Source: Heterodera schachtii | Taxonomy: Eukaryota > Nematoda > Chromadorea > Rhabditida > Heteroderidae | Direction of reading: 5' to 3' | Length of the DNA stretch: 64,000 nucleotides | Assembly (NCBI GenBank): GCA_023374025.1 | Contig: SIJG01000121.1 | Location: 200,705-264,704 of the forward strand | Part shown: positions 3,979 to 62,380 of the stretch, piece by piece | How the letters are laid out: each line of letters begins with the position of its first letter | Numbering within the stretch: the stretch's first letter is position 1 | Translations under genes and position numbers: made by a program | Notes under the pieces: generated by a model | Told to the model about the DNA's origin: nothing | Seen by the model: the letters and a program-made list of their open reading frames with translations, nothing else | The model's database searches: none

Positions 3979-4676
3979 CTGAAATACTTGAGAACTTAAA
4001 TTAAATAATAAAATTTAAAAATGCCTGACATTTTCTTTAATTGTCGGTCCATTTTGTGGCAATTAGCTGAGCACACTTTTGTCGTAAGTTATGATTGCAA
4101 AATGACAAACAACTTTTTTTGAAATTTTATTTCTCTTAATTTCTTTTTGTGAAAAATAAATGTTCGATAAGCAACAAAAAAATGTTAAATTCTAAGAATT
4201 GAACCCAAAATAATAGCATCGGACAACTTCATTTTTATTAAAAAGTTTTTTTTTTGGCTGAAATTAATTAATGAATTATGTAGAAGCGAAAGTCCTTTGA
4301 TTTTTTGAATTTTAATTGCTTTGTAAAACAATCAAAAAATCATAGTTTTGGGAATTTATAAATACAAGCAAATAGCAAATACAGACTTTAAGAAAGAATT
4401 AATGAGAATATCCGAAATTCAGCTTTTTCGAGTATATTTGGCATAATTTATTATCTTGAGCACAAAATTTAGTTACAAATGCTTCAAAACGCATTTCTAA
4501 TGGTTTGAGGCTTCTAAGCCCACTTTTTTCATGCTGATTTTTTGCTGATATCTCGGTTTTGGTGCTGATTTTGGCATTTTGGTGCTTTTTGTGCTGTTTT
4601 GTCATTTTGAGGAATTTTCTATAATATTTTTAGCAATTTTCAAAAAATTTATTAAAGCATTTTAATATTTCTTCAG

Positions 4677-5563
4677 GTACATTGACCATTCCGTGATTAC
4701 TTTTCTCCATTCCAGGAAGCGATTCTTTGACAGAAGTGGCTCCAATTTGCATTTGTTTGTGCATGCATTTGATGCGCATGTCCAGCCAATTTGGGATGTT
4801 TTTGCCCATGAAATTTGGCCAATTTTTGCGACAAGCATTCGTTATTTGGGCTTTCATAATGCCGATGCTTTGGACAATTTGCGTCGCCTGATTTCGCCAA
4901 CAATTCTCACTGATCTTGATCAATTGAATTCGATCGATTCCGGTTATCTGTTGCCCGATGGAATTGCTGACGATGGGCCAAATGCAACTGCTGGCCAAGC
5001 GTTGTCCAAATGGTTGCATACTCCGACAAAAAATGGTCAACCGAAGCGATTGTATCGAAATTATTATGTGGGTCCACCAAATCTCGAATGCGTCAACCAC
5101 TTCAAAGAGGTGTCCCGGCTTATTTCTTAATTGTTTTTATTTACCAATTTTGTTTAGACATTTCGCCGTGCCACCACTTCTGTCAGTTACAAAATTCAAT
5201 TTTATTTTTGCGCGATAACAATGCCAATTGAACAATTTGAATTGGTGAACGAAGGGACGAATGAAAAGCTGACACTGAAACAGAAGAGCGAAGAATCCAT
5301 CGAATTAATGTATAATTGGCTGTTAAAACGGTGCCCAATTGGGGAGACGGCGCCAGTTAAGTGGAAAAACTGCGAAAATTCGCGTGCCTTTTGATTTGAT
5401 CCGCGGTATGGCAATAATTCGTGTGCCAATTTGAACAGTGTCCGATTTATTTGGGTGGAAAGCATTAGCAAAAGCAATTTTTGATTGTCGCAAAATAAAA
5501 AATGAATAATAATTTTAGGTCATGTCGCCACCACCAGTGGAAGAAGAAGAAGAAATGGATTAA
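4677..5563 (+). pseudogene. F-box-like family member, 5'-truncated
   Basis: Third exon 4677-5109 opens after TTCTTCAG with Y-I-D-H-S-V-I-T-F-L, continues through E-I-W-P-I-F and N-L-R-R-L-I-S-P-T, and ends at GAG/GTGT. Fourth exon starts at 5158 (T-F-R-R-A-T-T-S-V-S-Y-K) and is open to a TGA at 5392-5394; the frame continues past it with N-L-N-S-V-R-F-I-W as in relatives. A last exon (5518-5563, P-P-P-V-E-E-E-E-E-M-D) is present. No first exon or F-box exon exists upstream; that space (4000-4676) is AT-rich and featureless. Probably a truncated duplicate. Confidence 0.7.
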
Positions 5564-6924: not shown

Positions 6925-7016
6925 CGGTCACTTCGGCGCGGCCACTTCGGCGCGGGTTATTTCGGCGCGGGGTTTTTTCGGCGCGAGCTTTTTCCGCGCG
7001 GCCACTTCGGCGCCCT
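6925..7016. repeat. TTCGGCGCG short tandem repeat
   Basis: About seven imperfect repeats of ACTTCGGCGCG/TTTCGGCGCG. GC-rich and abruptly bounded; it abuts the end of the Lon-like exon 2 copy at 7017 and interrupts the place where its splice donor should be. Confidence 0.8.
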
Positions 7017-7181
7017 CTCCTGCGATGACACCGGCGGGGTTCCCGTGCGTGCTGAAGACGCCCAACGCCATACCGTGTGCTTTGGGCTTATGGCTCGTGT
7101 GGCGGTTGTGGTCGTCACAGTGGTGGCCGCGCAGGGAGTCGACCATGTCCAAGCCATAAGCGTTTAGGCAGTCGGTGCGGC
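7017..7181 (-). pseudogene. Lon-like family, isolated second exon
   Basis: The minus strand reads D-C-L-N-A-Y-G-L-D-M-V-D-S-L-R, then K-P-K-A-H-G-M-A-L-G-V-F-S-T-H-G-N-P-A-G-V-I-A-G. This matches exon 2 of the copies at 27675 and 42590, including the glycine-rich first strand of a Lon proteolytic domain. The intron before it is collapsed: CGATTCCCGAAA, which precedes the acceptor by about 25 bases elsewhere, runs directly into the exon. The donor side is replaced by the GGCGCG repeat. A detached, non-functional exon. Confidence 0.65.
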
Positions 7182-8500: not shown

Positions 8501-9005
8501 TCACTGCACCGCCCACGGCAAGGGCTTGAACATGGCGTCCAACAGCTCCCGCCCCGTCCCGACGAACACCGGCGTCAGCCCCTCCCTCACATCCGCCGGC
8601 ACTGCCCCGCCCACGCGTCCTGGTCCGCCGTGGACATCACAAGGCGGGTGAGGTCAGCCTCGCGCGCGCCCCATGCCTTCTGCGCCAGGAAGCCGATGCC
8701 GAAGAGCTCGTCGGTGCCGAACTCCACTCGCGCAGTGACCGCTGTGTCGGACCGGCAGAGTCGGTTGGTGAAGAGTGACACCACCGCACACAGAACGGCG
8801 GCGCTTGCGGATGGCCCGAAGACATGGAGGGGCGGCCATCGCTTGAGGATGAGGGGCGGCAGTTGGTCGATGCCCAGCAGCTCCTGCGCCCGATGGACGG
8901 CGATCAGGTAGTGGAGTTCCGCGGCGGCATTGGCATCGAATTGGATGGACAAGGCCGGCGCATTCTGCTCCATGTCCAAGCACACGGTGAACAGCGAGGT
9001 GCCAC
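8501..9005 (-). CDS. Lon (S16) protease-domain-like protein, main exon
   Basis: After an acceptor (AACTTCAG) the minus strand reads G-G-T-S-L-F-T-V, A-L-S-I-Q-F, H-R-A-Q-E-L-L-G, then the Lon active-site region F-G-P-S-A-S-A-A-V-L-C-A-V-V-S-L, N-R-L-C-R-S-D-T-A, and G-F-L-A-Q-K-A-W-G-A-R-E. Ser in G-P-S and Lys in Q-K-A occupy the Ser-Lys dyad positions of Lon. One base appears to be missing near 8603-8609: the open frame stops at 8587, but the shifted frame continues with the family tail L-T-P-V-F-V-G-T-G-R-E-L-L and ends at 8501-8503. No matching upstream exon lies to the right (9006-10600), so the gene is partial or its start is lost. Function as a protease is inferred from family resemblance only. 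Confidence 0.7.
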
Positions 9006-9009
9006 CTGA

Positions 9010-10630
9010 AGTTAGAAAAAGGGAATTATAAATTTTTTGAGTTGTAATTAAACTTGGAAACAAAATCTCTCATAAAAGAGTTATTTAATTAAAATTTAAA
9101 AATTGTGCAACAACATTCGAGACAAAAAGGAAACAATTTTTTGTGAAATGTATAGATGAATACTTTTAACCAATTCCGAATCCCTTAACTGGTGAAGGCG
9201 AACAACAATTTGGTAAACTCTCGATATGACTTTGGGTTATGGATTCGGAATTGGTCGATAACAACTTTAAAAAATTTCAAGAAAAATTTTAGCAAGTTTT
9301 CTAAGAAAGTTCAAAGAAAAAAAGGAGAATTTTCTCATTTTTGAAAAAAAATTAATAATCTTAATAATTCACATAAAATTGTTTCGGAATATCTTTTTTC
9401 TTAGAATTTTATTATAAAATATTTTCTAAGATTTTTTAAAACATTTTTAAGTTCTAGATTTAAAAAACAAATACTCGGGGGGGGGGGGGGGGTGAGCTGC
9501 TCAATATTTAGAGACGGCAATATTTTTATTTGGAAATTGTCAAAAATTTGAGAATTTTAAATTTTCGAAAAATAGTGTAGTCTCTGTCTGGCCATGCGTC
9601 AAACCGGTTTTTTTGTGGACAAGGAAAACGGGTTTTTGGAGCACATCGGATTTTTCACGGACTACCATAAAAAACAACTGTCCGAAAATTTCTTCGGGGA
9701 CGAAATTCGGGTTCGGGAAACAAAATGTGTCGGCAACAGTCTCTTTGTTTGCCAACAAATAAAACGCACCGCTTCAGCGGCAGTTCGCTCGCTGAGCCGT
9801 TTTCGGATGATACCAAGATTGTTAGATTTGGATGACAAAGAAAAAAGTTAATAGCCCAAAAACTTGAGCTGGCGCCGAAACGGTGGCTCAGAAACGATCC
9901 TACGCACACAAAAAAGAAAAAACTACTGCCAGAAGAGCGAAAAACAAAAAAAAAAGGCCGGCCGCCACCATAGAAAACGGAATCTGCCCGTTTTGAAAAA
10001 AGCACGCCGCATAATTAACGGCGAAACCAAAAAAAAATTTTTAAATATGTAAATTAATGAGTCTATTAAATGCTAACGCTTCATTTTCGATAAAACATTT
10101 TTGCCCCCCACCACCTTGCATAATCCACCTTCGTTGTACACCGGTTTGGCGACGCCAACGCATCGATTGTGCGCATTCACTGAGGCCAAAACACTGTGCA
10201 GGCGGATTCAGCAGCAATAAGTCACTAGAAAATGTTGATGAACATTTGTAACAAAATTTTCCATAAATTTGCTTAAAAGTAACCAAAATTTTTCTCATAT
10301 CAACCAATAGCCCACATGAATTTTTTGTTAGGCTGTAAAATTTCAAAAAATTTCGCCTTATTTGATTTTCAGACTAGTAGAAAATTCTTAGGGCTTTCGA
10401 GTGATATTATGAGAAAAACCAAATAAAGCCTTTTTGCACCTGGAAAATTATTTGAGAAATTGATAAATTACTATACCGGGTGCATCACAAATAAACCCAC
10501 GGAAACCGTCAAAAATTTCGCAATTTTTTTCTCCAGTGTTATTTGGAAATTTTCGTCGCCGGGGAAAAAAGCAGGAATTTATAGCCGTTGTTCGCCAAAA
10601 AAGGGCCAAATATTTGGGTTTGAGCCAAAT
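9010..10630. other. Stretch without a recognised gene
   Basis: AT-rich, with a run of G at 9478-9492 and an isolated GATGATACCAAGATTG motif at about 9806 (see the dispersed-motif finding). An 85-codon frame at 9594-9851 shows no recognised domain. Confidence 0.4.
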
Positions 10631-17799: not shown

Positions 17800-19188
17800 T
17801 TTTTAGTTGGACAGATTCGAGGATCAGCTGAAAGGCTTCGTCAAGAAGCACGGAGCGAGTACCCAACTTCAAACCGAAATATTGTCAGTGATGTCCGTTC
17901 GAATTTGCCTCTTGAAGTTCGAGTTGCGTCTGCACCAGGCCCTTCTTGCATGAGATGGACATATAATTATCACCGCCGAAAGCAACAAATGGCGGTCAAA
18001 AAAATAACATTCCCGATCAGTTGGTTGATCGATTCATCTACAACCAAAATCTCCAAGGGAGCAGAATGATTATTTTCTGTTCACAATTTGGCATTAACAC
18101 CCCCCGGGCCTACAGAGACGAAGTTGCAGTTGATGGAACGTTTGAAGTTGTTAGAAAAAGTCGGCTGTCAGATAAATGTCGATTTAGACAAGTCCACGTG
18201 GTTTTGCTCAACTTTATACTATGTCAGTCCTCGTCGACCGTTGTGCAATCCCATGTGTTTATGGGCTTATGACAAGCAAATCTGCGGCTGCTTACAGAAT
18301 TTTTTTTGACTCAATTCGCTCATCAATCGATTTGGAGTGGTACCCGGCAAGGATTATGAGCGACTTTGAAGCCGGAGCAATTTCGGCAGCACGCCAAGTG
18401 TTCCCGGAGTCGGAACAAAGCGGCTGCTTGTTCCATTTCGGCCAAGCAATTTTTCGCCGAATTCAGACTTTTCCCAATTTATTTGGACAGTTTAACAATA
18501 TTGAGAATGTCCGAATGACTCTTCGCTCTCTGCAGGCGTTAGCATTTGTTCCAGCTGGAAATGTCTACAATTACTTTTGCATATTGATGGCAACGCTTGA
18601 GCCAAACCATGAATTACAGGGTCTAGTCTTATAAAAAAAATTAAGTAATTCTAAAACTAAGAATTTGTCATTTATTTTGTGAGGACATGGATTGGCCCAA
18701 GGCAAATTGTTGAAAACGAAGAGGTTCTTGTACGTGATGCGGGAGGGGCAGCAGATGCATGGATTAGGGGTCAAATTGAAGCGCGCAATTTGAGACGACA
18801 AGCTGCCCTTTTTCCAATTAATTTATGGAATATGGTAGACCGAGTTGCAGAAAATCTCAGCAGAAGCAACAATTCATTAGAGGTTTAAAAAAAAATTTCC
18901 GGGATTTCTGTGAATTTAAAGGGATGGCATTCTGTGTGGAATACGCATTTGAATGGAACACAGCGCTTAAGTCCATTTTGCCGAAAAATGGTAGCAGAAG
19001 AAGATATGTGGCAAACCCGTCTTGCTGAATTCCAAGTTGCTCCCGCAAATGGAATAAGGGGGCCGTATGAAAAAAGAAAGTCGAAGTATCAGCGTCAAGA
19101 TGCAAATCTGCAAGCCCTTGTAGCCGATTTCGCAAATCGCGACCCTCTACAGTACATGAGAGCCTGCGCTTATCATTTACATTTTTAA
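17800..19188 (+). pseudogene. Mutator-like (MULE) transposase, decayed
   Basis: Plus-strand pieces in changing frames match the order of a MULE transposase: V-D-G-T-F-E-V-V (first catalytic Asp), S-K-S-A-A-A-Y-R-I-F-F, I-M-S-D-F-E-A-G-A (second Asp), V-F-P-E-S-E-Q-S-G-C-L-F-H-F-G-Q (the C-x-F-H-F motif), L-A-F-V-P-A-G-N-V and, across a short intron (about 18883-18920), N-N-S-L-E then G-W-H-S-V-W-N. An N-terminal piece from 17805 (L-R-Q-E-A-R...) may be the start. Shifts of frame at about 18130, 18220 and 18640 and AT-rich inserts show decay. I found no terminal inverted repeats around it. Confidence 0.75.
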
Positions 19189-25523: not shown

Positions 25524-26640
25524 CTAGAAATGTCATGGTAATTTTTTTTGTGAAAATTTTATGAATTTTTAACTTTTTACCCGAAGAATGCCGTAATAAA
25601 TGGCTTCCCACTTCTAAGCCCATTCCCGAATTCGAAACAAAATGTCGAGATTTGTCAGACGTAAAATTTTGATCCAAATTAAGAGGCACAAGGCAACGAT
25701 AAACAAAACAAAAAAAGTTCAGAGAAGCCCCAAAAAACAGGAGGTTTGACTCTGAAATTTGTGCGACTCCGCTAAAAATTGAAACAAATCAGTGCTTCCC
25801 GGGTAGGTCACGGGCGGAAGCTCCAAATTTACATAAAGATAACAAAAGATATTAAAGTTGAGTGTTTGTATGTGTCTATGTGTGTGTCCATGTTTGAATT
25901 TGTGTGGCGTTTTGTTATTATTTTGTGTTAAAAATGTGTTTGAAAAATGAAATGTTTTTTTTCTTTTTTTCATTTTGAATTTGCTTTTGACATTGAAAAA
26001 AGCAGTTTCATAAAAATGTACTTCCTTTTTTTTATTTGTTTGTCAAATTTATTTATTTTTTGATTTATTTTTATTATATAAGAGATAAATTTGTACAAAT
26101 TAATTTACCTATGTTGAATTTGTTTTGTACATTCCTTCTTTAGGTTTTCATCAAAGTTTTTCCATTGTTGACACCTTAAAATGATACCTAAAAATGAAAT
26201 TTAAAAGACATGAAAATGTCACTATCTTGGTATATTAAAGAATGACAATTTTTATTTTCTTTTGCTGAAAATGGTAACAAATGTTGTGACATAAGAAAAA
26301 GCTAAGAAAAAAGGAAAATGCTATGAAATTTGCATAATAAAGTGCCAATTAGAAGAAAAAGGGACAAGAATAATGCTAACAAATGTTATGCCATAAGAAA
26401 TAACGATTTAAATGCCAATGTAAATAGGCCCCCGGCTGAAGTTGCACTTTAGTGGAAGCGAGGCGCGAAGCGGCCGAGCCCCCCGCCCCAACCAAAAAAA
26501 AGAGGAAAAAATGCCAGGTTTGAGTCCCGGTGAATGGAGATTAAGTTCCAGTGATTGGAGTGTGTAGGATTCAGTTCCGGTGATTGTAATGCCAGTTTCG
26601 TGGAAGTGAGGCCGCGAAGTGGCCGAGCCCCCGCCCCACC
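25524..26640. other. Stretch without a recognised gene
   Basis: AT-rich. Near 26430-26650 there are two similar copies of a GC-rich piece (GAAGCGAGGCGCGAAGCGGCCGAGC and a relative), leading into the minisatellite. The first exon(s) of the ILVBL-like gene may lie here, but I could not identify them. Confidence 0.4.
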
Positions 26641-26689
26641 GGTTCAACACCCGAATACACAAAAAAAAATGCCGAGGTCTGAGTCTCGG

Positions 26690-27205
26690 TGAATGGGATG
26701 CCGAAAAGTTGGTGAGATTGAGTCCCAGTGATTGGAATGCTGGTGAATTAGTCCCAGTGATTGAAATACCATTGAAATGCTGGTGGGTTAGTTCCGGCGA
26801 TTGGAATGTTGGTGGGTTGAGTTTAAGTAATTGAAATGCTGGTGGGTTAGTCCCGGCGATTGGAATGCTGGTGATTTGAGTTCCGGCGATTGGAATGCTG
26901 GTGGAATTGAGTCCCGGCGATTGGAATTTTGGTGCGTTGAGTCCCAGTGTTGGAATGCCGGAGAATTGAGTCCCAGTGATTGAAATTTAGTCCCGGCGAT
27001 GGGAATGCTGGTGGGTTGAGCCCCAGTGATTGAAATGCCGGAGGATTGTCCGGGTGATTGGAATGCTTGTGGGTTGAGTCCCGGCGATTGGAATTTTGAT
27101 GCGTTGTGTCCCAGTGTTGGAGTGCCGGAGAATTGAGTCCCAGTGATTGGAATGCTGGTGGGTTGAGTCCCGGTGTTGGAATGTCGTAGAATTGAGTCCC
27201 AGTGT
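26690..27205 (+). repeat. Minisatellite, unit about 30-37 bases
   Basis: About fifteen imperfect copies of GATTGGAATGCTGGTGGGTTGAGTCCCGGC, with unit lengths varying by a few bases. Bounded on the right by AGAGGCCGCGAAGCGGCCGAGCC, a relative of the left-hand boundary, so the array may be part of a larger inverted-repeat element. Confidence 0.9.
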
Positions 27206-27548
27206 TTTTTTTAAACCATAAGAAAATGCCAAGAGAGGGGTGAGAGGCCGCGAAGCGGCCGAGCCATAATAGTCGGTTTTATCATTCATAATTATACAAC
27301 ACAATCGTACTGCCTAGCGGGGGGATGCGCCGAAGGCGCTAACCCCGCTAATAACAATTAAATAGAATAATTTAAAACTATCAATATGACAAGCGAAAAT
27401 AGCAGCAGTAAAAATTATGCTTTATTATTACATTTTGAAAAATTTTTAATGCCGAAATGGGGCGAGTTACGAAAACATTAAAAGCGAAAATTCATTTTAA
27501 ACCCACAGATTAATTCTTTTGCGTTTTCTTACATTATTTTTCTTCAAA

Positions 27549-28512
27549 ATGATGCAACAAATCGCTTTCGCCACCGACCTTCCGTCTCCGATGCAAGTAT
27601 GCAATTTTTGAGTTCTGAATGAATTGTGAACAAATTTCGTTTCGCGAAATAACGTTTGAATCACATTAATTTAGCCGCCCGGACTGCCTGAGCAACTATG
27701 TCTTGGACATGATCGGTTTCCTGCGGTCCCATGTCTACAGCCACCACGGGGCCGACCACAACCGTAAGCCCAATGCGCCCGGCCTGGTGTTGAGTTTGTC
27801 CAACACGGACCCAAACCCCGCCGGTGTCATCGCAGGAGCCGGTAATCTATAAGACAAATTGTTTTTCCTATCTTTGATACAACTCAAAAAAATTTAATTA
27901 CTTGGGAGGGAAAAATTGGGACCTATTTAATACGTAATTCAACAAGCTCAGAACTAATTATGGCATTGTCTAAAAAATGCACAATTCCTTTTTATAGGTA
28001 GAACCGTCATATACACGGTCTACCGGTGCAGGAGGGTTGGTGCCCGGTCGTTGTCCGTGACGTTCCTGCACGACAAAGACGCGCGGATGTGCTACGTGAG
28101 TGCCCTTGAACGCGCCCAGATGCTGCTTGGCCTTCACCATCTGCCGCCTCTCGCCATCAGGCGGTGGCCGAACGCCCACGCCTTTGGACCGTCCGGCAGC
28201 GCAGCCATTCGGTGTGCCGTTGTGTCTCTGATGACCAACCGCCTCTGCCGGTCCGACACTGCAGGTCTCCGTGAACGTCGACGGCTTCACCGACCTCCTC
28301 TTCGGCGTCGTTTTCCTGGCGGCGAAGGCGCACGTGCGGCAGGCTTCACCCGCTTGGTGCTGGCCACGCAGGACCGGGAGATCTGGGAGGCGTTGCTGGC
28401 GGCGGACACGGATGGGCTGACAGCTGTGTTCGTCGGCACGGGGCGGCAGCTGCTGGCAGAGATGTTCAGGCGTTTGCGGGAGAGGAGCAGTGAGCGGCGG
28501 CACAACAACTAA
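27549..28512 (+). CDS. Stand-alone Lon (S16) protease-domain protein
   Basis: Exon 1 27549-27596 (M-M-Q-Q-I-A-F-A), exon 2 27675-27841 (R-P-D-C-L-S-N-Y...K-P-N-A-P-G-L-V-L-S-L), exon 3 27998-28512. Exon 3 has V-T-F-L-H-D-K-D-A, S-A-L-E-R-A-Q-M-L-L-G-L, F-G-P-S-G-S-A-A-I-R-C-A-V-V-S-L-M and N-R-L-C-R-S-D-T-A; then an extra base (about 28268) shifts the frame until about 28330, after which F-T-R-L-V-L-A-T-Q-D and V-F-V-G-T-G-R-Q-L-L are in frame again. In the shifted window the true frame still spells F-L-A-A-K-A, giving the dyad Lys. The order matches a whole Lon proteolytic domain, about 240 residues, but exon 1 starts it, so there is no AAA+ ATPase or N-domain. Exon 1 is one base longer than its 42464 counterpart. 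No signal peptide is evident. Substrate unknown. Confidence 0.7.
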
Positions 28513-29883: not shown

Positions 29884-32800
29884 ATGCTCACCAGAGAATA
29901 GTGAGTTATTTATATATTGTTTTTCCGTCATCATTCTTTTGACACCTCATTAATTAATTACGTTGTTAATTGGTTCATTCACTCTTTTGTGTTTCATTTA
30001 GTCGCATTGTTATGCCGTTGACCACTGAAGAGTATCAAATTGCCCAATTGTTTTGCTTGGAGGAGGGAGCGCGACAGGTTGGAGGAATTTGCGGCGCGAA
30101 AATCTTTTTTTTTTTGTTTTCAAAAGTCATGAAAACATGCTACCATAGGTTTTCGGGGTTGCTGGTCATGAAATCGGTATTCTTTTCGACGAATTCTGAA
30201 CGCCGAGTCCGATTTCGAACAGAAAATTTCGAAAATTCAAATTTTTCGAATTTCCTTTTAAGTTTAAAAATGGTTTGAATGATTCTTTTATTGAAGGAAG
30301 CACTGATGACTCAGTTCGTTTCCATGCTGCATTTAACAAAGTACATACCTAAAACGAAAAATGTGAAATTCAAAATCCGAGTTTTGTACTTTTTGTTCGA
30401 CTTCGAGTCCGGGATTCAGAATTGGTCGGAATGGATGCCGGGTTCGTGTTTACGACTTTAATGACCCCGAAAACCCTTGGAAAACATTAATTTTTTTTTT
30501 TCAAAAATGGGGGGGGGGGGCAAATGTTTGATGGAGTGGCGGTTTATGTGCATTTTCCCTTTTCAGTTAGAGGAGAGGGGCGATGTAGAAGAACGCATTC
30601 AAGTGGTGCGCGACAACGAGCCATTCGAAGGCCAAAATCTGTGCAATGGCCGATTCACATCCGGACACTTTTCGCACAAAATTTACCATTTCAATTCGTG
30701 AGTTTTGGAGGGATTGTAATGGCTCCCGGACTTTTCGACAGAGGACTTTTCGACAGCAAAGGACTTTTCGACAGAAACACAAAAAATAATGGACTTTTCG
30801 ACAGTAAACATAAAAACAAATAATTTTTATTAAAATAAATTATATTGCTTGTCAGTTTTACTAAATTTCTTAGAAATTAACATACTATAATATGTATTGC
30901 TAAATCATTATCACTAGAGCTAATATTTTTAGGTTTTTACCTAATTTTTTTTCCTGAGCTCTCAGTGACCTTAAACGCACGAAAAAATGTTTTTTTGCAG
31001 TTGTTAAGCAATTTTCGATTTCTTAGCATCTATTTTCTAGGTTTTTATTTTTTAGCACTTTAAATTAATAAATTTTTGCCAAAAATCTATGAATAAAATG
31101 GTAATAAAAACGAAAAATACACCCCCCTAAAAGTCTATCAAAAAATTTCAAAAAAATACATCTTAAGAAAAGAAAATTTTTTAAAAAATCATCTCCATTT
31201 ATTTGTTTACATTCTTGAAAAGATTTTTGAATTTAAAAATTAAGTATCTCGATAATTATTTGAATTAATTTGTTGCTTTTGAATAAAATTTTAAATTTTA
31301 CATCCCTAAATTTGAAACTTAATTACATTTTACTGTCGAAAAATCCCCTCCTCAACTTTTAAATATTTCTGTCGAAAAGTCCTTCTGTCGAAAAGTCCTC
31401 TGTCGAAAAATCCGGCGCCCATTGTAATTAGGGTTGGTCGAGATATAATGAATGCTGCTAATTGGTCGCTAGCGTTTTTAGAGGTCGTTCTGATCACGAG
31501 TGATCAGCGACCCTGAAAACCCTTGGCAGCATGTTTTCATGGTTTTTGAAAACAAAAAAAAATTTCAAAAAAGGGGGGCAACCGTCGGCAGTATTACCCT
31601 CGAATATATAGCATATTTTTAGTTCTGATCGTTTATTGCATATGTTTATGGCGCTTAAGTTTTGTTTCCGTGTTGTTTTAAACCGATTTTGTGAACCAAA
31701 ATGCTAAATTTGCAACTTTCAGCTTTTTGTTGTTCGAATTCGGGTCCGGGCTTTGGAATTGGCAGAAATGGATCCCGAATTCAAAAAACGGGTGCTACCA
31801 CCCGGCTGTAGTATTACCATGAAATATGTAATCAATGCTAATTGGTTGCTCGCGAATTTTCCAGAAAAAAGCTGCCCTCTCTTCTGCGCCGGCTTTGCCA
31901 AAGGGTTCGATGAATGTGCATGAAAAAGTGTGGAACGCCTTCCCGTACTGGAAAGAGGAGCTGACCAACCCGGATTTCATGAAGGACAACTTCATGATTC
32001 GGATGGAAACAATGCTTTTGAGTGATCGTGGCACCACAAAAAACGTATGTTTGATGGATAGGATAAATCATCATCATCATCACCAAATTGTCGATTATTT
32101 TCCCGTGAGCCCGAATTTTTGGACTATACTTTTTTCATTGTTTGTCAACCAAATTCAATTCAATGTTGTTATCATTCCAAAGCTGAACATGTTTAGAAAT
32201 TGTATCTATGCAATTGCTTGGCGATTAGACAATTGCCAAAAAAGTTATAATATGAAAATTGCGAAAAAGTCGAGATTTTTGAAAATTTTATCTTCATTTT
32301 TATACTTTTGGTATCATTCGAAAGCTGAACATGTTTAGAAATTGTATCTATGCAATTGCTTAGCGATTAGTGCTGTATCCGCAGCATTCAAAATTTCATA
32401 TTTTGTGCATAATGTAAATTGCCCTACTTTCCCCGACCCAATCCCGTAATAAATTTGTCCCTCTGTTCATCCCATCCCAAGCCAATCCAATCCCTCTTAT
32501 TTCTAATGTTATCGTGCCATTTCTTCTCATTCACCTCTGTTGCATATGCCATCCATTTCTCTTATTCCCTTTTGTGTTTTGCCGTCATTGCCCCTCATCC
32601 TATCCAAAGTCCATCCCCATTGTGCCAGTATATAAGTCCACTCAATTTCCCCCTCGGGGGCTGCGAGATGTCTGCGGTGGGTCAGTCTGTGCCATTCCTT
32701 GCCTTTGGCAATTCTCTCCCAAATAACCAATTGCACTGACCCACCCAAAATGCTCTGAGGTTGTTGTTGATCCAAACTATTCCCGGTTTTTTATCATATA

Positions 32801-35800
32801 ATTATTTGTCAATGCTTTTCCTACAATAAATCCCTCTCTCTTAAAATGGTAATTTGAAATGGCTTAAAGCCTTAAACCCGGGGACACAACACCTTTTTGG
32901 TGCCACGACCCGTTGTGTAAAATTTTTTGTTAAAAAGAGAGAGAGAATTATAATTCCAGAGCATTCCAGACTGAAAATCTGAGGTTCTAAAAGGCTTAAA
33001 TTTGAACAAGGCAGACTTAAAATGGGACGCAGACCCAAAAGCAGTTTTAGTCTGCTTAAATTTTAATTCCTTGTTGGAGATTGGAAGAAATACATTGTCT
33101 TGCGAAAGAAATTTGGCAAATTTTCTGTGGCTAATTTGGCTGAGTACGGTAATACAAAAACCATATGGCATATTTTGTGATCATTGATTGATCAATGCGG
33201 TGTGCTTTAATTTGATAAATTGTTAATTTTTGTGATTTTGCGGTTTTCAAAAGGCTAAATGCCAAAAGTTTTGTGAAAAGATAAAGGCTAGTCGCAGCTG
33301 TGTGCCGTTGTGGCTGTGTGCCACGAAACTGGTCGAAGCTGTGTGCTCCCAGACAAGTGACAAATAAGGCTAAAAAGCCGTAGGCTAGCCGAAGCTGTGT
33401 GCTCCTAGCCGTGCTGAGTGCCGTTGTGGCTGTGTGCTACGAAGCTGGTCGAAGCTGTGTGCTCCCAGACAAGAGATCAATTAATGGGTGAAATGAGCGT
33501 AAGCCATGGACTAGTCGAAGCTGTGTGCTCCTAGTTGTCAAGCGAAAAAATGGCTGGTAACGCTGTGTGCTTAAATGACTGTGTGCCAAAAATGCATTAT
33601 CGGAATTTGAAGGCATAAAGCCTTATGTATATTTTTGTTGTTGTTTGTATTATGTGATGCTAACAGGTTAAATGTTGAACCGTTTTTAAGGCCAAAATTA
33701 GTTTACTGAATAATAAATGACAATGCCAATTTGAGAAATTTTAATGGAAATGCAGAAAATAAGCTTTGAGATAAGCCAAAAAAAAAGGAATGAATGTGTG
33801 AAAATCAGAGAAAAGGCTGAAGAAAAGGCGCAATTGAAGTACTATAATTGAAATTGAAAGGATGATGAAAAAAAAAGGAAAAAACTAAGGGTCAAAGAAA
33901 AAAGTGAATAAATTTTGGAATAAAAAACCTTCGAAAAAGGTAAAGCAGCATATTTTGAGAAAATTGATGCAAAGATAAAATTGATAAAGAAAAGAAAAGT
34001 AAGAAGCAAGCGAAAACTTTGTTTTTGAAATGAATATGAAATAAAAAAAAAACCGGAGACTATTTCAAAGAAAGGAAAAGCGAAATTTGCCATTAAAGTG
34101 AAATAACCCGAGATATGGGTATCAAGAGTAAAAATGACATGATTGAATGAAGCAAATGGGAAGCGTTGCATGAGTTCAACTGAACGGCAACAGATAATCG
34201 TGTTCATCAATGTGTGGCCATCAATGAGCACCCGCCCGAAGGCAGATCAGAACGACGGATGCTTTGAAGCTGATCAGAAGTGATGAGGCAAAAGCCAGGA
34301 GGCTTTTTTTCGAAGGAGGAGAGAAATGCTGTATCCGCAGCATTCAAAATTTCATATTTTGTGCATAATGTAAATTGCCCTACTTTCCCCGACCCAATCC
34401 CGTAATAAATTTGTCCCTCTGTTCATCCCATCCCAAGCCAATCCAATCCCTCTTATTTCTAATGTTATCGTGCCATTTCTTCTCATTCACCTCTGTTGCA
34501 TATGCCATCCATTTCTCTTATTCCCTTTTGTGTTTTGCCGTCATTGCCCCTCATCCTATCCAAAGTCCATCCCCATTGTGCCAGTATATAAGTCCACTCA
34601 ATTTCCCCCTCGGGGGCTGCGAGATGTCTGCGGTGGGTCAGTCTGTGCCATTCCTTGCCTTTGGCAATTCTCTCCCAAATAACCAATTGCACTGACCCAC
34701 CCAAAATGCTCTGAGGTTGTTGTTGATCCAAACTATTCCCGGTTTTTTATCATATAATTATTTGTCAATGCTTTTCCTACAATAAATCCCTCTCTCTTAA
34801 AATGGTAATTTGAAATGGCTTAAAGCCTTAAACCCGGGGACACAACAATTAGACAATTACTAAAAAAAAAAGTTAAGAAAATTGCGAGAAAGTCGAATTT
34901 TGAAAAAAAATTTAATTATTTTTTTTACAGGCCATGAAATCTTTTTGGTTTTTGGATGGTTAAAACCTCATGAATGATACCAAGATTGCTGGATTTCGTT
35001 GACAATGAAAAATTTTGCAGCGATTTTTTCAAAAATTTTATGATGAACTCCTGTTTTTCAAACATTTCCCAAAAAATTGCTGAAAAATAAAAAAAAAATT
35101 TTTCTTGAATCATAATAAAAAAATTTTTTTTTTAATTTGTTCTCAACCGTCGACATTCCATTCGGTGTGTACAGGCCGTGGTCCGTTGACGGAACAGTGG
35201 CAGACCAACTGCGAGCCGTTCATGTGCGCTTACAAATTGGTGAACGTCAAATTCAAATGGCTCGGTTTCCAAACCGTGGTGGAGTCTTTCATGCAAAAAG
35301 TGTGATATGTAGGGATCGGGTACGGGCCGGACCCGTATACGGGTTAAGGGTTTTACGGGTTTTTAGCCCGTAACCCGTATTGGTGTCAAGCCCGTAACCC
35401 TTACCCTTATCCGTATTTTCTCAAAATACCGATCTCTAGTGATATGTATGAGAGAGATTCATTTGTCGTCTAGCAGCACAGTTTCCAAACGGGAGTAGCA
35501 CCGAAATCTCGCCGGATAAATTAAAAAAAATGTTTTTTTTTCAAACTTAGAATTTTTCTTGAAAAAATTCGTTGAAAATTTTAATCTCGTCCCCGAAATT
35601 TTGTTTAGGCGAGATTTTGTCCCGTCCCCTTTCTAAACACATCGCCAATTTCCCTCCCCGTCCCATTTAGCAATTCCCCCGCATTTTCTGCATGTTCAAT
35701 CGCGCCTTGTTCTGTTCCATGGACCGCTGGTACGCACTGACATTGACGCCAATTCGTTTGATCGAAGATGAGGCACAACAAGCATTGGATGAGGTGGGTT

Positions 35801-36998: not shown

Positions 36999-39900
36999 TC
37001 ACTTCCGCACAATTCGACGAGTCTTTCTACCACTTTTTCGCGCCGCTGGTGGAGTAGACAATGGCCTAAAAATAAATGCCAAAATCTATTTTTTATCTCG
37101 AAAATTTTTAAATTTTAATTGAATTTGTCTTTGCCCGAATTTGAACAAAAAGTCGAAAAAAAAACCCCAAAAAATTGTTGTAAAATTTTTAATCACAATT
37201 TTAAATTTTGGATTTTTTTAAAGATATACTCAATGTAACAAAATATTCTAAAAAATTAAATATTATTTAATTATTTTTAATCATTTTACACAAATTCTGC
37301 TCACCAAATGCAATTGACACCACTCAAATTGATGCGGACATTGTTCAAATTGTTGTTCAAGTTTTCGTCCGTCCATTGTGCCGTCGTCGTCGTCTCCCCA
37401 ATTTGGCATCGTTTAATTATCCATTGGCTGCATGCTTCTTTGGTCAATGTCAGCTTTTCCCGGGTTCTTTCATTCACCAATTCAAATGGTACCATTGATG
37501 TTGTTGACGGCGCATAAGCAATAAACTGAATTTTGTAGCTGACGGCATTGGTGGCACGGCGAAATTGCTAAACAAATTTGGAAATGAAAACACACACAAA
37601 TTGGCAACAATCTTTTGAATGGTACAATATTTTGTGCGCGTTTAATCAATTTTAAAACAACCCATATAAGTCAGTGAGTGCCAAAAGATTTACCAAGTTA
37701 TTGTTAGAAATTTTCAAGAAAATCTTAGTTAAATCGCTAAGATTTTCTAATACTTTCATGGATGAATTATTTCTAAATGGCGGGGGAGAGGGAAGGGTAA
37801 AGAGCTGTCTCTGTCACACCTCTTTTTTCGAATGTTAAATTCCAAAAAAAAAAAATTCCATGGTGAATTACTGATTTTTCTAAATATTTTTCCAAATAAT
37901 TGCCAAAAAAATCTTAGAAAATATGTGAAGCAGATAAAAACTTCCCGAAATTTCACGGGATTTCAAATTTAGTACAGAATTTTCAAAAAAAAAAAAATCG
38001 ATTGAAAAATTTTTTGTTTTCATATAAATTTTAAAAAGTTTTCTTTTTTTGAAAAATTTCTAAGTTAGAAAAATTTTTTAAAAATTTTATTCCGCTGTGT
38101 TGTCTCGGCTGTGTTTCGGCTGTGTTTTGTCCTGTTCCGGGGTAAACGTGCTGCTGCTCCCTGCACACCTCTTTGAAAATGTTGACCCATGCATTTGGTT
38201 TTAGTCCACTATGACTGAACATTCTGAAGGCGCAAAACAATTGCTTCGGTTGCCCGTCTTTTCTCGGTGTGTGCAACCAATTGGACAATGTTTGGCCAGC
38301 AGTTGCTGTTCTGTTTGGAGGATTCTGATCAATATTAGTCAAATCGGGCATCAAAAAGCCGGAAACGATTGAATTGATGTTGAGATCGGTGAGCATTGTC
38401 GGCGAAATGCGGCGCCACAATCTGTCCAGATCAGAAGCATTCATAAATGCCAGGTGGCGAATGTTTTGCGCAAAAATTGGCCAAATTTCGCGGGCCAAAA
38501 AATTCCAGCTCTTGCGGAGTTTGTCATAAATGCACACTCGCAAACACAAACTGGTGCCTCTTCCATCGTCAAAAATTTGTTTGTTTGAGCAGAGAAATTC
38601 GAGCACGGATTGGTTAATGTACCTGAAAAAAGGGGGGGGGGTGTCTATTTTCAAACTTAGAAATTTTAAAAAAAAATTCTTGGGAAAAAAATTTCCAATT
38701 GAAATTTTTTTTGGGGGCAACGCTTTTTACATTAGCTGCTTTTAATTATAATCAATTTTTTAATTACTCAATCCGAAGGTGTTTAAAGCGAATTCTGTTG
38801 GGCAGCGAATGGTCGGGCCACGGAAATTCCACAAATTTGCCACCAATGCGCACAGAAAATTTGGCCTGCTGATGGTCGTCCTGAGCCATTGAGATTTTGA
38901 TCCATTTCCAAATTGTCAATTCGCTTTTGCCGCCGAAATGTTTGTCCACCAACGCATTGAAACGTGGCGAAATCAATGCCAATTTGAGGCCAAGTTGAGG
39001 ACGGTCAAAAAACGGGAAAATGTCCATCCAAACGTCGGAGCAAATCCAACTGAAAAATGGAGGGGAAAAATGATTGAGCGGTTTTAAAATGCTTAATTTG
39101 ACACAAGAATTCGGGGCTCTTATGCAGTTTAGGCCCCATATACAAAAATTTTACATTTTAGAATAAAAGAAGCCAATCTATAGGTTTTCGGGGTCGCTGA
39201 TCGCGAATCCGGCATCCATTTCGGCCAATTCCAAATCCCGGACCCGAACTCGAACAAGAAGTCGAAAATTAAAATTTTTTATTTTAGTCTAAAAATAGTT
39301 TAAATGATTTTTAATTGAAGCACTAATGACTTTCAGTTCGTTTCCGTGCATTTAAACAATGTTGACCAATAATATGAAAACCAAAAATTTTAATTTCGAC
39401 TTTTGTTCGAATTCGAGTCCGGGATTTGGAATTGGACGAAATGAATACCGGATTCGCGATCAGCGACCACGAAAACCTATAGATTGGCATATTTTATTCT
39501 TAAATGTAAAAATTTTTTTTTGTATATGGGGCCTAAACTGCACAAGAGCCGAATTCGGTTCTTGTCGGTTTTGCTCATCCCATAAATGTCCAATGTCCTC
39601 GGTTTCTTAGGCCATAAATTTATTTGGTCAATGCCTTCATTCTTGGTATCAAACGAAAGTTTAAAGCCTACAAATTTTTTTCAAAATTTTTTTAATGTAA
39701 TTTATTTTTAATGCTGGTATTTGCTCTTTTCTTGCATTTATAAATTGCCGAGACTTTAAGAGCTCTCGATTGGTACCAAGAATAAAGGCAGTGACCAAGT
39801 ATGAAAAAAGTTATGGCCGAAGAATCTGAAAATGGTCAAAATCCCAAAATTCGGTTCCGTTTTTTACATTTTCCTCAAAGTTCGGTTCATTTTCTTTGCC

Positions 39901-40055: not shown

Positions 40056-40244
40056 TAAAAATATAATAATAATTGCCTAAATGAACGAAATTGTTGTATG
40101 AAAAAACTCGAGGATTTCCAAAATTTGCCGGACCGGTTACCGGATCCAGTAAAACCGGGTCCGGTCGGCTCGGTCTCAAAAAAAAAACAAATGTTTAATT
40201 TAAACATTGGAATGGGAGGTTTTTACATAAGCAGGGCTGGGATT

Positions 40245-41222
40245 GTACGCTGCCCAACAAAATTTGCTTCAAGCAACTTCGGATTTGATAATTCAAATTC
40301 AAACGTGGATTAACACACAAAACCATTGCTTTTTCAGTTACATCGACCACTCGGTCATCGCAATTTTCCGTGGCAATCAGCAAATTTTCGACAATGGTTC
40401 CAAATTGGATTTGAATGTTTCGTCAATTTACAAGGACTTTGTCCGGTCGATTCGGAATGCTTTGGTCCGCCATATTTTGCCCATTTTTGTGCCAAACATT
40501 GGCCAATTGGGATTCAAAAACGCTGATCATCTGTACAGTTTGCTTCGCTTCACTTCTCCAAAAGTGCTCTCCGATCTCAACATTCATTCAATCGATGCTG
40601 GTCGTCTGTTCCCAAATGCGATTGATTCCGGTGCTCAAATGCTCGATGAGATTGGTGGTGATTTTGATGGACCAAATGCATATTCTGCTGTCCAAATGGT
40701 TGCACATCCCGGGAAAAAATGGCCAACCGAAGAAATTGCGTTGTAGTAGTGATACGTCAGAAATCATAGAATTGGTCAACAATTTCAACGAGATGTGTGG
40801 CCACATTTTCGTTGGCTAATTGCCATTGGTTTTCGTTTCTCATTGTTTATAAATTTATCCGTGCCACCACATCTTCGGCCAACTACAGAATTCGCCTTGC
40901 GCTTTATGAATCAACGGAAATTGTGCCATTTGAATATGTGAACGATTGGACCAACGAAAGAAGGCGATCATGGCAATACCGGTGTTGATTGGCTAATAAA
41001 GCGATGTCAAATTGGGGAGACGAAGGCCGTGTTAAACGAAAATTCGGGCAATTTGAACAATATCAGCTTTTCGTTTTATGGAAATTGCATTGAGTGAGTG
41101 GCAACAGCTTTTGCTTTAATTGCAAAATTAAAGTTCGCTTAATTTAGGCCATTGTCTCCACCGGTTGATGAAGAAGCGGGACAAAGCACCGAGAAAGGGG
41201 CGTCTTCTGCTGACAATGAGTG
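40245..41222 (+). pseudogene. F-box-like family member, decayed
   Basis: A stub of the F-box exon's end (40245-40290, C-C-C-A-A-C-A-A-A-A-T-T version of L-P-N-K-I) precedes a third exon from about 40336 (Y-I-D-H-S-V-I-A-I-F-R-G-N through D-G-P-N-A). A one-base shift at about 40681 splits it from K-W-L-H-I-P-G-K-N-G-Q-P-K. The donor after N-F-N-E is lost (GAG/GTG is now GAGATG), and the next acceptor is altered (TTTATAAATTTATCC where relatives have TTTAGGCATTTCGCC). The fourth exon is also shifted at about 40965. A last exon (41150-41222) is preserved. Clearly non-functional. Confidence 0.8.
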
Positions 41223-42463: not shown

Positions 42464-43118
42464 ATGATGCAGCAAAACGCCTTCGCCGCCGATTTCCGCC
42501 TTCGTTGCAAGTAAGGCATTTTTCGAGTCCCGAATGAATTGTCAACAAATTTCGATTCCCGAAATAACGTTTGAATCACATTAATTTAGCCGCCCGGACT
42601 GCCAAAGTGACTACGCCTTGGACATGGGCATCTCCCTGCGGTCCCACGTCTCCGGCTACAACTGGGACGACCATCACCCCGACACCAACAGTAAGCCCAA
42701 CGCGAGCGGGATGGTACTGGGCGTCTTCAGCACGCACGGGGACCCCGCCGGTGTCATTGAAGGAGCCGGTAAGGAAATTTTGCGAGACAAATTTTGTTTT
42801 GTTTTCCAATTTGGACTATCCGCCAGGCCGCCATTTTGTGTGCCGTTGTTTCGTTGCTGACACACCGCCTCTGTCGATCCGACACTGCGGTCTCCGTGAA
42901 CGTCGACGGCTTCACCGACCTTCTCTTCGGCGTCGGTTTGCTGGCGGTGAAGGCGCAAGCAGCACGCGCGGCTGTCCTCACCCGCTTGGTGCTGGCCACG
43001 CAGGACTGGGAGGCGTTATCGGCGGCGGACACGGATGGGGTGACGGCGGTGTTCGTCGGCACGGGGCGGCAGCTGCTGGCATAAATGTTCAGGCGTTTGC
43101 CGGAGGAGGAGCAGTGAG
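42464..43118 (+). pseudogene. Stand-alone Lon-protease-domain copy, internally deleted
   Basis: Exon 1 42464-42510 (M-M-Q-Q-N-A-F-A-A-D-F-R-L-R-C), exon 2 42590-42768 (R-P-D-C-Q-S-D-Y-A-L-D-M-G-I-S-L-R; K-P-N-A-S-G-M-V-L-G-V-F-S-T-H). The start of exon 3 is missing: from the donor at 42769 the sequence passes within about 40 bases to F-G-L-S-A (for F-G-P-S-G-S), then after a shift of frame A-I-L-C-A-V-V-S-L-L, S-V-N-V-D-G-F-T-D-L, G-L-L-A-V-K-A-Q-A-A-R (dyad Lys present), F-V-G-T-G-R-Q-L-L and a stop at 43082-43084 where relatives have Glu. The whole region coding V-T-F-L...H-A-F in the 28 kb copy is gone. Not functional, but exons 1 and 2 define the family start well. Confidence 0.75.
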
Positions 43119-59359: not shown

Positions 59360-60160
59360 ACAATATTTGCTTAAATAAACAAAAAATTCATGAAAAACTA
59401 CCATAAAATGGATTTAATTTTTTATTGCTTTCAATGCAGCGAAATGAAAAAATAGTTAGCGAAAACCAAAAAATATGGGGGAAAAAAATCCATTCGGGTG
59501 AAAAATTTAATCCTATTGAATTAAATATTGCCATTTTTTCGAATTTTTTGCGCACTTTAATTTTATGAAAATTTCCAGCTATATACTTGAAAATCAGTAT
59601 AACTGTACTTGAAAAGAGGTTGGACGACCAGACCTGACTAAAAAGCTTCAGCAAACCAAAAAATTCCAACACCGTATGATTTAAGTGAAGAAAAAGAAGT
59701 TTCTGGAGTTCTGAAAGCTGATTTACGAGCATTGAAAAAGAAAATGTGATTTTTTAGTTAAAATTTTTTGTTGATCACTGCCCGATCGGGGTCCCCGACC
59801 CCCGTAATTGAGCTCCCCCCCCCCGACCAGACATGTGCCCCCCGGTGGTCCCCGGCTCCCGAACCTTGTCTAAAAGGGTCCAAATTTTTGTTTTTAAAAA
59901 ATTTCTCCAGAGATCGGGAATCGAGACTCTCGCACTGCCCAAAATCAACTACAAAACGGGATGTACAACATAAAAAACTATTGATATGTTCGATGCAGTA
60001 TTTTTTTCTCTATCCGTATGCAAAATTTCAAATAGAATTAACGTGTAGGAAAAAAGTTAAATGTCACGAAATAAATATTGTTTTTATATTGTTAAAAATG
60101 AAGAGATAGTACATAAAATTAGGAAAAATAAAGATAAAAGGAAAATGTAAAAAACACCAA
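59360..60160. other. Stretch without a recognised gene
   Basis: AT-rich, with a CCCCGACC repeat fragment at 59790-59870. Confidence 0.4.
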
Positions 60161-60182
60161 TTTTTTCCATAAAAAAGATTAT

Positions 60183-60547
60183 TGCCGCTTTCGCGCTGGC
60201 CATCACAATTCGGGACAATCCTGCGCGGCGTGCACCATCCGCTTTCCACCGTAGTCCGCCAACGGCTCCAATGCCGACGCCGTTTGTCACGGTGGCAGAA
60301 ACAGCAGTGTCCAAACGGCACAGGCGGTTGGTCATCAGAAACATGACGGCGCAAAAGAACGCCGCGCCTCCCGACGGGCCCACAACTGGGGTATGTCGCT
60401 TCGGCCAGCGCCTGACGGCAAGCGGTGGGATGATCTCATTGCCCAGCAGTTGTTGCGCGCGGGCGAGTGCCGTGTCGTATGATGTCCGCGACTCGGGACT
60501 GACGGCGAAGCGGACGGTGAGTGCAGGGGCCGCTTCCGCTTCATTTT
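60183..60547 (-). pseudogene. Lon-protease-domain-like copy, C-terminus lost
   Basis: The minus strand reads E-A-A-P-A-L-T-V-R-F-A-V, L-A-R-A-Q-Q-L-L-G-N, V-V-G-P-S-G-G-A-A-F-F-C-A-V, N-R-L-C-R-L-D-T-A, then without a break G-V-G-I-G-A-V-G-G-L-R-W-K-A-D-G-A-R-R-A-G-L. Ser (G-P-S) and Lys (W-K-A) of the Lon dyad are both present in a single open frame. Similarity to the tandem neighbour ends at about 60183 (A-S-A-K-A-A), before the last 40-odd residues, and the exon before 60547 is missing. So this is a partial duplicate of 61047-62380. Confidence 0.7.
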
Positions 60548-61046
60548 CTGAATGGTGTGTTAAGTGAAATTTTATATCATTTAGCACAAATTTAACGCTT
60601 TTTGGTTTAAAAGATTTATAAAGTATATGACACAGTCTTTAATTTTTTTTTTAATTTTATTTCAGTGACGAAAGGTTCAGTGACGAAACATATGTGACAA
60701 CAACAACGCCAATTGAACCATTTGAATTGGGTGCTAAATTTTCTTTCCTCAAAATTTGGTCAAAAACCGGAGGTCAGCCAAAAACCGGGGGGTTCAAACC
60801 GGCGAGTGCCCTGTAAAAATTTTTTCCTTTAGCATAGGCCTCATATTTTTACCTCCAGATTCTTTGCTTACTGGGCAAAAATGCTTTTACCTTGAGAAAA
60901 ACCCCAAAATCTCTGTAAATTTTGTGCTAGAATATTGTAAAAATAATCAGAGAGTTAAATTAAAAAAAACATTGCTTTATCCTATTGTATAAAATTTGCA
61001 AATGATCAAATCAACAGAAAGTGAATTTGTTTATTTTATTCATCGG

Positions 61047-62380
61047 TCAATTTCCTAATTTTTGTCCATTTTCTCTTTCCCCAGTAGCGTTCATCAGTCC
61101 ATACAGATCGTTGACGCAGACGGGCGTCAGTCCCTGCTTCGCAGCTGCTGGTACCGCTGCCCAATGTGCCTCGTTTGCGCTGGCCATCACCATTCGGGTC
61201 AATCCTGCGCGGCGTGCACCTTCCGCTTTCCACCGTAGTCCGCCAACGGCTCCAAGGCGACACCTTCGTGACGGTCGCTGATACAGCGCTATCCGAACGG
61301 CACAGGCGGTTGGTTATCAAAGACATGACGGCGCAAAAGAACGCCGCGCCTCCCGACGGGCCCACAACTGGGGAATGTCTCTTCAGCCAGCGCCTGATGG
61401 AAAGCGGTGGGATGATTTCATTGCCCAGCAGTTGTTGCGCGCGGGCGAGTGCCGTGTCGTAAGATGCCCGCGACTCGGGACTGACGGCGAAGCGGACGGT
61501 AAGTGCAGGGGCCGCTTCCGCTCTTGACTCATATATGGTGAAGAGGAAAGTGTGGCCTGAAGTACACAAATAGGCAGTCTTTGGTAGAAAGGCCAAATAA
61601 CTTGCCAAAGCGCATGTTGCCGTCGGTGGGAGGCATGATGGTCAATCCCAGAATTAGGCCGGCGCATTTGGCTTGCGAAGTCGGCTAAAATGATCCAGTC
61701 ATAAAGGCAAATTCAATTAAACAATAAAAAAATAATTTTAATAGTTGAATTAAATCAAATATGCAAACAAGGTCGTGAAATATGCACCAATTATGCACAA
61801 AAATCGCAAAATATGCACAAAAAGAAAACTTGAAAATTAGGGGTGCAAATTAATTTTAAAAAAATTTTTTCCTCAAAATTTTTTTTTGCAACTGCAAAGC
61901 AAAAAATTTCTCAAGATTTCCGCAGTGAAGCTCACTGTTGACCCACTCGCAAATCTATTCAGATTTAGATTTAATTTTAGGCGTAATCAAATTTTTTCAT
62001 TAGTGTTATTCAAATCGGAAAAATGTGTCGAAAAATGGCAAAAAATCTGTAAATATTTACAAAAAATGGCAAAATATGCATGTATGCAGAAAAATCCAAA
62101 ATATGCATAATAACCAAATACGTAGAACCCAGGAAAAAAATACATTTGCATATTTTTGACAGCCCTGGTAATTTAAATTAAATTTTAAAGAAACCAAAAA
62201 TTAAAAAAAAAATTTTTCGCATTTCCCCAACCGGTAATTGCGATTTTTTGTGTGGCACATTTGACGGCACATTGCTTCTGCCCGTGTCCATGCGTACAGT
62301 TGGCCGTTGTTCACCAATTCAGTAGCATCCGTTGAAACAATTTTGACGAATTTGTCCATTCCGTCCAGCATTTGCGAATG
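61047..62380 (-). CDS. Lon (S16) protease-domain-like protein
   Basis: Exon 62380-62232 (Q-M-L-D-G-M-D-K-F-V-K-I-V, A-W-T-R-A-E-A-M-C-R-Q-M), exon 61684-61606 (L-R-K-P-N-A-P-A, then after one missing base L-I-L-G-L-T-I-M-P-P-T-D-G), a GC-AG intron (G/GCAAGT), exon 61556-61047. The last has H-T-F-L-F-T-I-Y-E-S-R, A-P-A-L-T-V-R-F, V-V-G-P-S-G-G-A-A-F-F-C-A-V-M-S-L, S-D-S-A-V-S-A-T-V-T; two missing bases near 61265; then G-A-V-G-G-L-R-W-K-A-E-G-A-R-R-A-G-L, V-M-A-S-A-N-E-A and a stop at 61047. This is the fullest match to a Lon proteolytic domain, G-G-L-x-x-K motif included. The true start is not identified upstream (62381-63100 is AT-rich). Ser-Lys peptidase activity is predicted from the motifs. 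Confidence 0.7.
61740..62160. repeat. AATATGCA-rich stretch
   Basis: Repeated AAATATGCA/ATGCACAAAAA and AAAATGGCAAAATATGCA strings in the intron of the Lon-like gene, with CAGCCCTGG at 62161. Probably another short element with an internal repeat. Confidence 0.5.

Follow-up and report, generated by a model that had tools for sequence, protein, structure and literature searches.

Can a Lon proteolytic (P) domain exist in an animal as a gene of its own, without the ATPase to which it is normally fused? The question is raised by a 64,000-nucleotide (64-kb) stretch of the genome of the beet-parasitic nematode Heterodera schachtii (contig SIJG01000121.1, positions 200,705 to 264,704; referred to as the window), in which an initial annotation placed two copies of a gene encoding solely the peptidase domain, starting at positions 27549 and 42464. 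A nematode gene family with a Lon peptidase domain and without an ATPase is real. Judged by their sequence, the two copies are pseudogenes of this family, and the window is a decaying part of a tandem cluster. With a probability of about 0.65, we read the whole as a tandem-cluster family born from the P domain of LONP1, the intact members of which lack the N-domain and the AAA+ module and would be ATP-independent Ser-Lys peptidases in which a finger or an anchor in the membrane takes over from the unfoldase; the two annotated copies are, on this reading, pseudogenes.

The extent of the family was determined by profile searches of the 178-Mb genome. The Pfam Lon_C profile (PF05362) matched at least 55 places at E<=0.001, and a query built from the window's subfamily matched at least 40 places, partly different from the Lon_C set; these counts are lower bounds because such searches score the best candidates alone (55 of 95 for TIGR00763). 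TIGR00763, the model of full-length Lon, gave at least 58 rows. Nine of them, on contig C4, span ATPase and protease in order and represent a normal LONP1; among the matches listed, 47 were confined to model positions 650-795, i.e. the P domain, and two were short isolated AAA+ snippets on C16 and C131. The Lon N-domain was found at two places among the best candidates, namely LONP1 and one site on C1 away from the Lon_C places. Among the candidates scored, Lon AAA+ or N-domain sequence thus adjoins just one of the at least 55 Lon_C places, which is LONP1 itself. As LONP1 served as internal positive control for both searches, the distribution of TIGR00763 and N-domain matches establishes the P-domain-only architecture as a property of the family, and the TIGR00763 search, among the candidates scored, speaks against AAA+ exons hidden near the stand-alone P domains. 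The lack of a nearby AAA+ module reported in the initial annotation is borne out, both TIGR00763 rows on the window's contig matching the P domain only. A search with PF00004 (19 of 141 candidates, E<=1e-10) left LONP1's own AAA+ part unlisted and therefore cannot show absence; it was set aside, and our probabilities are the same without it. One full-length Lon gene, LONP1 (C4:2415770-2419352), was found among the best candidates; since no second gene combining AAA+ and P domain appeared there, peroxisomal LONP2 may be absent or have diverged too far to be recognized. Inverted pairs of stand-alone P-domain exons less than about 1 kb apart were recurrent (L006, L007, L011, L040 and L041, on C11, C27, C31 and C1).

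The intact stand-alone members that were checked comprise 206-286 residues. Locus L020 consists of three exons joined at GT-AG sites, with a single open frame of 235 codons, the product of which is identical (100%) to the deposited protein P0001 (niasHS_000753). Three further loci are complete, L052 (241 residues) and L035 (232 residues) by the splice rules of L020 and L015 (240 residues) with splice sites inspected by eye; the length of about 240 residues originally proposed fits these four paralogues. P0002 from H. trifolii has the same length as P0001 and shares 73% identity with it. P0009, identical (100%) to the deposited niasHS_014350, contains little beyond the P domain in its 206 residues, its Pfam match starting at residue 9. 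P0010 (L010, 286 residues) carries in front of the P domain an N-terminal hydrophobic stretch followed by basic residues, an anchor by eye, and the stretch is conserved in P0012 from H. trifolii, which suggests a second subfamily with a hydrophobic anchor instead of the finger described below. PF05362 scores were 49.3 bits for P0001, 89.0 for P0009, 65.6 for P0010, 55.8 for L015 and 40.6 for L035 (cut-off 21.1), and L052 remained slightly under the cut-off with 19.7 bits. The P-domain fold is predicted to be kept in intact members: in the structure prediction of P0001 residues 43-235 form the P domain, leaving 42 residues in front, and the P0009 model (mean predicted local distance difference test score, pLDDT, 65.7) was not used. 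By eye, no mitochondrial leader was evident on P0001 or P0009. In the deposited-protein searches, two of three of which scored the best ~8,000 candidates, the named proteins among the matches listed came from H. schachtii and H. trifolii alone, the other matches having no organism label. That a protein is deposited speaks weakly, if at all, for its expression, because gene models were retained, according to the accessible text of PMC11817004, if they had RNA-seq reads above zero or homologues.

Exons 1 and 2 of the window's subfamily encode a finger in front of the P domain which the initial annotation had overlooked. Exon 1 ends with TGCAA directly before the donor GT, exon 2 starts after AG, and the join reads C-N-R-x(1-2)-C-x(12 or 14)-H-x4-H. 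Scanning 307,617 bases of partly overlapping loci on both strands with this pattern gave nine matches, all of them on the strand of a P-domain exon and no more than ~0.4 kb ahead of it; ten block shuffles and the reversed sequence yielded no match. Because the pattern requires the Cys and His residues, their presence in the nine matches is not independent evidence; such evidence is given by the placement, the shuffles and the separately deposited P0001 and P0002. The exact C-x2-4-C-x12-H-x3-5-H arrangement occurs in P0001, P0002, L015, L035 and L051, and the middle is x14, deviating from the C2H2 pattern, in L031, L037, L038, L052 and L054. In the window's subfamily, the P domain thus appears to be preceded by a single finger of C2H2 type (C-x3/4-C-x12/14-H-x4-H), for which zinc binding is predicted. 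A zf-BED match above cut-off (23.0 bits) arose from a wrong splice and was discarded, the correct splice giving sub-threshold finger matches. At L026 (C48), two more C-x12-H-x4-H stretches lie upstream of the P-domain exon, so other subfamilies may also bear fingers.

The catalytic dyad was located in an alignment to Meiothermus LonA. The dyad Lys is the second Lys of G-G-x-K-E-K, 43 residues past the Ser, and the dyad Ser679/Lys722 of E. coli Lon, as given in the accessible part of PMC9569914, has the same spacing; in P0001 (Ser137/Lys181) one insertion extends it to 44. A reading in which the first Lys of G-G-L-K-E-K is the dyad residue, and the dyad is thereby lost in most copies, was rejected by counting 43 residues from the Ser in this alignment; the second Lys is kept. 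Out of 86 open-frame pieces aligned to the family profile, 51 span both dyad columns (50 excluding LONP1). Ser was kept in 48/50, Lys in 48/50 and both in 46/50 pieces, and when pieces from seed loci were excluded both were kept in 30/33. Grouping at 80% identity yielded 35 clusters with a mean pairwise identity of 28%, and among columns occupied in 70% or more of the clusters conservation was highest for Ser (0.97) and Lys (0.94), followed by a Gly (0.91) and an Asn (0.90); the Pro preceding the catalytic Ser reached 0.71 of the 35 clusters. Two of the exceptions concern L031, where Val replaces Ser next to a frame break, and L050, a poor match.

The introns bear on the origin of the family. 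In LONP1, the P domain is interrupted by a phase-1 intron inside the Gly codon of M-G/G-S-A-L-Y (slash, intron) and by a phase-0 intron six residues before G-P-S. The first recurs in the window's subfamily inside the Gly codon of V-G/H-T-A-L-F (L020, and at 27841/27998 in the copy starting at 27549). As for the second, an AG acceptor lies exactly six codons ahead of G-P-S or G-S-S in L003, L004, L010, L012, L013, L014, L016, L018 and L044, its phase 0 being confirmed on the sequence for L003, L010 and L013 and at the acceptor side only for L004. AG stands at the LONP1 offset in 17/67 rows of the intron table. It appears to be a genuine acceptor in LONP1 (one row) and in nine loci (11 rows); in the remaining five AG rows it is located inside an open exon and was taken as chance. 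Because both introns of the LONP1 P domain have counterparts of identical position and phase in stand-alone genes, descent from the nematode's own LONP1 is the simplest account of these sequences. Horizontal transfer from bacteria might be read from the best Protein Data Bank sequence match of P0001, which is Meiothermus LonA (45.7 bits, human LONP1 40.6), but it leaves the shared introns unexplained, and P0009 scores higher against human LONP1 (81.7 bits) than against E. coli Lon (60.2) or archaeal LonB (42.4); we give a bacterial source almost no credence.

Against this family background, six Lon P-domain remnants (A-F) were identified in the window, every one of them incomplete:

7012..7179, minus strand: copy B, exon 2 alone
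8504..9069, minus strand: copy A, exon 3 retaining both Ser and Lys, with a frame break near 8605; exons 1 and 2 not found
27549..27596, plus strand: copy C, exon 1 (MMQQ...), in a frame unfit for a GT-AG junction to exon 2
27675..27841, plus strand: copy C, exon 2 with the second half of the finger (C-x14-H-x4-H) and the first P-domain strand KPNAPGLVL
27998..28512, plus strand: copy C, exon 3 with G-P-S in frame, the Lys segment out of frame and the C-terminal part back in frame; no Pfam match
42464..42510, plus strand: copy D, exon 1 (MMQQNAFAADFRLRC), ending with TGCAA before GT in phase 2 like intact paralogues
42590..42768, plus strand: copy D, exon 2 with a finger half having Asn at the last His position (VSGYN) and the first strand KPNASGMVL
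42827..43084, plus strand: copy D, exon 3 remnant starting beyond the Ser block, with the dyad Lys kept and an early stop
60087..60638, minus strand: copy E, exon 3 holding both Ser and Lys in a single frame, with the C-terminal part unmatched; exons 1 and 2 not found
61050..61641, minus strand: copy F, exon 3 in two frames with a break between the Ser and Lys parts

Several features originally described for copies C and D are indeed seen in the sequence, namely a first exon opening with M-M-Q-Q and a second exon with K-P-N-A-x-G-x-V-L in both. The proposed exon-1/2 junction at 27596/27675 does not hold: it uses GT-AG, yet a stop follows inside exon 2, and an open frame requires a GC "acceptor" one base further on. 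Nor is it right, as had been claimed, that exon 3 of both copies holds G-P-S together with the dyad Lys. Against the family profile, the exon-3 open reading frame (ORF) of copy C aligns over positions 5-69 and 91-139 and not over 70-90, the stretch that contains the dyad Lys column (88) and is encoded in another frame; copy D matches at 49-134 alone, the G-P-S block with the Ser column (45) being missing. With the Lys segment shifted in copy C and the Ser block missing in copy D, neither copy offers the complete dyad in one frame. The expected PF05362 match also failed to appear, the exon-3 ORFs of both copies remaining unscored even at E<=1; among the window's ORFs, Lon_C scored 25.7 bits at 8590-9069, 31.6 at 60087-60638 and 12.4 at 61039-61641 (cut-off 21.1). 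One could argue that copies C and D function through unusual splicing or with an altered but useful sequence, since the exon-3 frame of copy C is open over 184 codons and its reading frame is preserved if the GC acceptor is used. Intact paralogues are, however, spliced in frame at GT-AG sites, the dyad is incomplete and the Pfam match absent in both copies, and the remaining four copies in the window are likewise broken, which makes function of these two copies very improbable. The notion of a peptidase-domain-only family is therefore upheld by the genome search, the deposited proteins and the predicted fold, but not by the copies on which it was founded, which are decayed, and the window's subfamily carries the finger in addition.

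Selection on the family was assessed by the ratio of nonsynonymous to synonymous substitution rates (dN/dS) in 88 pairs of paralogues sharing 50% identity or more, of which 72 fall into three dS bins and 16 have larger or undefined dS; the pairs are non-independent and the pieces were chosen as open frames. Median dN/dS was 0.33 at dS 0.5-1.5 (32 pairs) and 0.49 at dS 0.1-0.5 (29 pairs). Several observations weigh against a family of active, finger-bearing peptidases. The newest duplicates (dS<0.1, 11 pairs) have a median dN/dS of 1.09, and this value near 1 together with the many broken copies indicates that part of the family is weakly constrained. The dyad Lys is replaced by Arg in L003/P0009 and by Asn in L059, although Arg need not inactivate the enzyme, the dyad being written S679, K/R722 in the accessible part of PMC1560137. 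Correctly spliced fingers, though matched in place, score under the Pfam cut-offs (L035 with zf-C2H2, 15.3 bits vs 25.2), and AlphaFold leaves residues 1-43 of P0001 unfolded (pLDDT<50). In the isolated P domain of Archaeoglobus LonB, the dyad was unformed according to the accessible text of PMC9569914, so that lack of the AAA+ module may leave a P domain inactive. Long-term constraint combined with relaxed recent copies is, at the level of these sequences, a birth-and-death pattern.

One alternative view is that the stand-alone P domains are no longer proteases by themselves and serve, as regulators or decoys, to bind peptides or to assemble with LONP1. They are without an AAA+ partner that could unlock the active site, 4/50 pieces have lost Ser or Lys, and isolated P domains can be self-inhibited or dimeric in solution, as stated in PMC9569914. 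A binding-only role does not predict that Ser and Lys are the top two well-filled columns family-wide, and P0001 and P0009 have no obvious mitochondrial leader by eye; we consider this view unlikely. A role as secreted parasitism effectors would agree with the lineage expansion and rapid turnover, which are typical of plant-parasite effector families. It is quite improbable given that no signal peptide is visible by eye in P0001, L015, L035, L052 or P0009, that P0010 and P0012 have a hydrophobic anchor, and that 'lon protease', 'lon proteolytic' and PF05362 are all absent from the main text of the effectorome paper PMC11309470. We therefore favor LONP1-derived, ATP-independent Ser-Lys peptidases. 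By analogy with LonC, their LonA-type P domains, possibly in rings, would cut peptides or unfolded segments without ATP, and the finger or membrane anchor would bring the substrate or set the location in place of the unfoldase. More tentatively, and with the odds against it, the lineage-expanded peptidases may be guided by the zinc finger, which would bind nucleic acid or protein and place the peptidase on chosen substrates; we know of no Lon protein for which such targeted cleavage is established.

UniRef automatically names members 'Lon proteolytic domain-containing protein', and S16 figures, in the accessible part of PMC9499627, as one of the peptidase families abundant in plant-parasitic nematodes, with no comment on architecture. 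The initial statement that such a family is not described accordingly has to be qualified. No description of stand-alone or finger-bearing animal Lon P-domain proteins was found in open-licence PubMed Central, most entries being judged by title; papers on Lon protease and cyst nematodes were by title unrelated, and one mentioning both a Lon proteolytic domain and a zinc finger deals with plant proteases. Neither H. schachtii genome paper (PMC11817004, PMC9582021) mentions Lon protease in its main text. A function can thus be proposed from sequence for crop-pest proteins so far filed under an automatic domain name.

Interspersed with the Lon copies, the window contains a second family of repeated genes with a motif near I-D-H-S-V-I-x-F-L-R; a transposase remnant of a Mutator-like element (MULE) and an exon of another gene are also present:

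3219-3752, minus strand: second repeated family
4666-5130, plus strand: second repeated family
13316-14170, plus strand: second repeated family
18188-18634, plus strand: MULE transposase remnant
31832-32338, plus strand: phosphatidylinositol transfer protein exon
38031-39150, minus strand: second repeated family
40231-40746, plus strand: second repeated family
54152-54781, minus strand: second repeated family

Four ORFs of the second family (two at 13.3-14.2 kb, one each at 38.0 kb and 54.2 kb) had no Pfam match above cut-off. A minisatellite-like repeat with a unit of about ATTGGAATGCTGGTGGGTTGAGTCCCGGCG (by eye) occupies 26500-27215, directly upstream of copy C, and 32413-32739 and 34369-34695 are direct copies with identical translation, ~2 kb apart.

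Lon is the textbook peptidase fused to its own ATP motor, and an animal lineage having P domains without the motor is a natural experiment on whether this domain can work alone, selection having kept the dyad in dozens of widely diverged copies and a finger standing where the motor was; the small single-domain proteins allow a direct test of the lone P domain. Compared to LONP1, the mitochondrial LonA (MEROPS S16) of ~950 residues (959 in the human chain), the family has neither N-domain nor AAA+ module, measures 206-286 residues in the members checked, occurs in many copies and has no evident mitochondrial leader. LONRF proteins also join a zinc-binding domain to a Lon piece in animals, but combine RING with the Lon N-domain and have no P domain. 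The C-terminal domain of BrxL (8eil) differs in belonging to an AAA+ phage-defence protein. PDZ-Lon_C proteins (P0020, P0022-P0027), which we take to be bacterial, likewise have a Lon P domain without an AAA+ match, their small partner being PDZ instead of a zinc finger. LonC of Meiothermus taiwanensis is, according to the accessible text of PMC3391209, an ATP-independent Lon-like protease of unfolded substrates; it forms hexamers and has a large degenerate AAA-like region, for which the nematode proteins have no room (42 residues in P0001), whereas Ser-Lys peptidase activity on unfolded substrates without ATP hydrolysis is what the nematode proteins would share with it.
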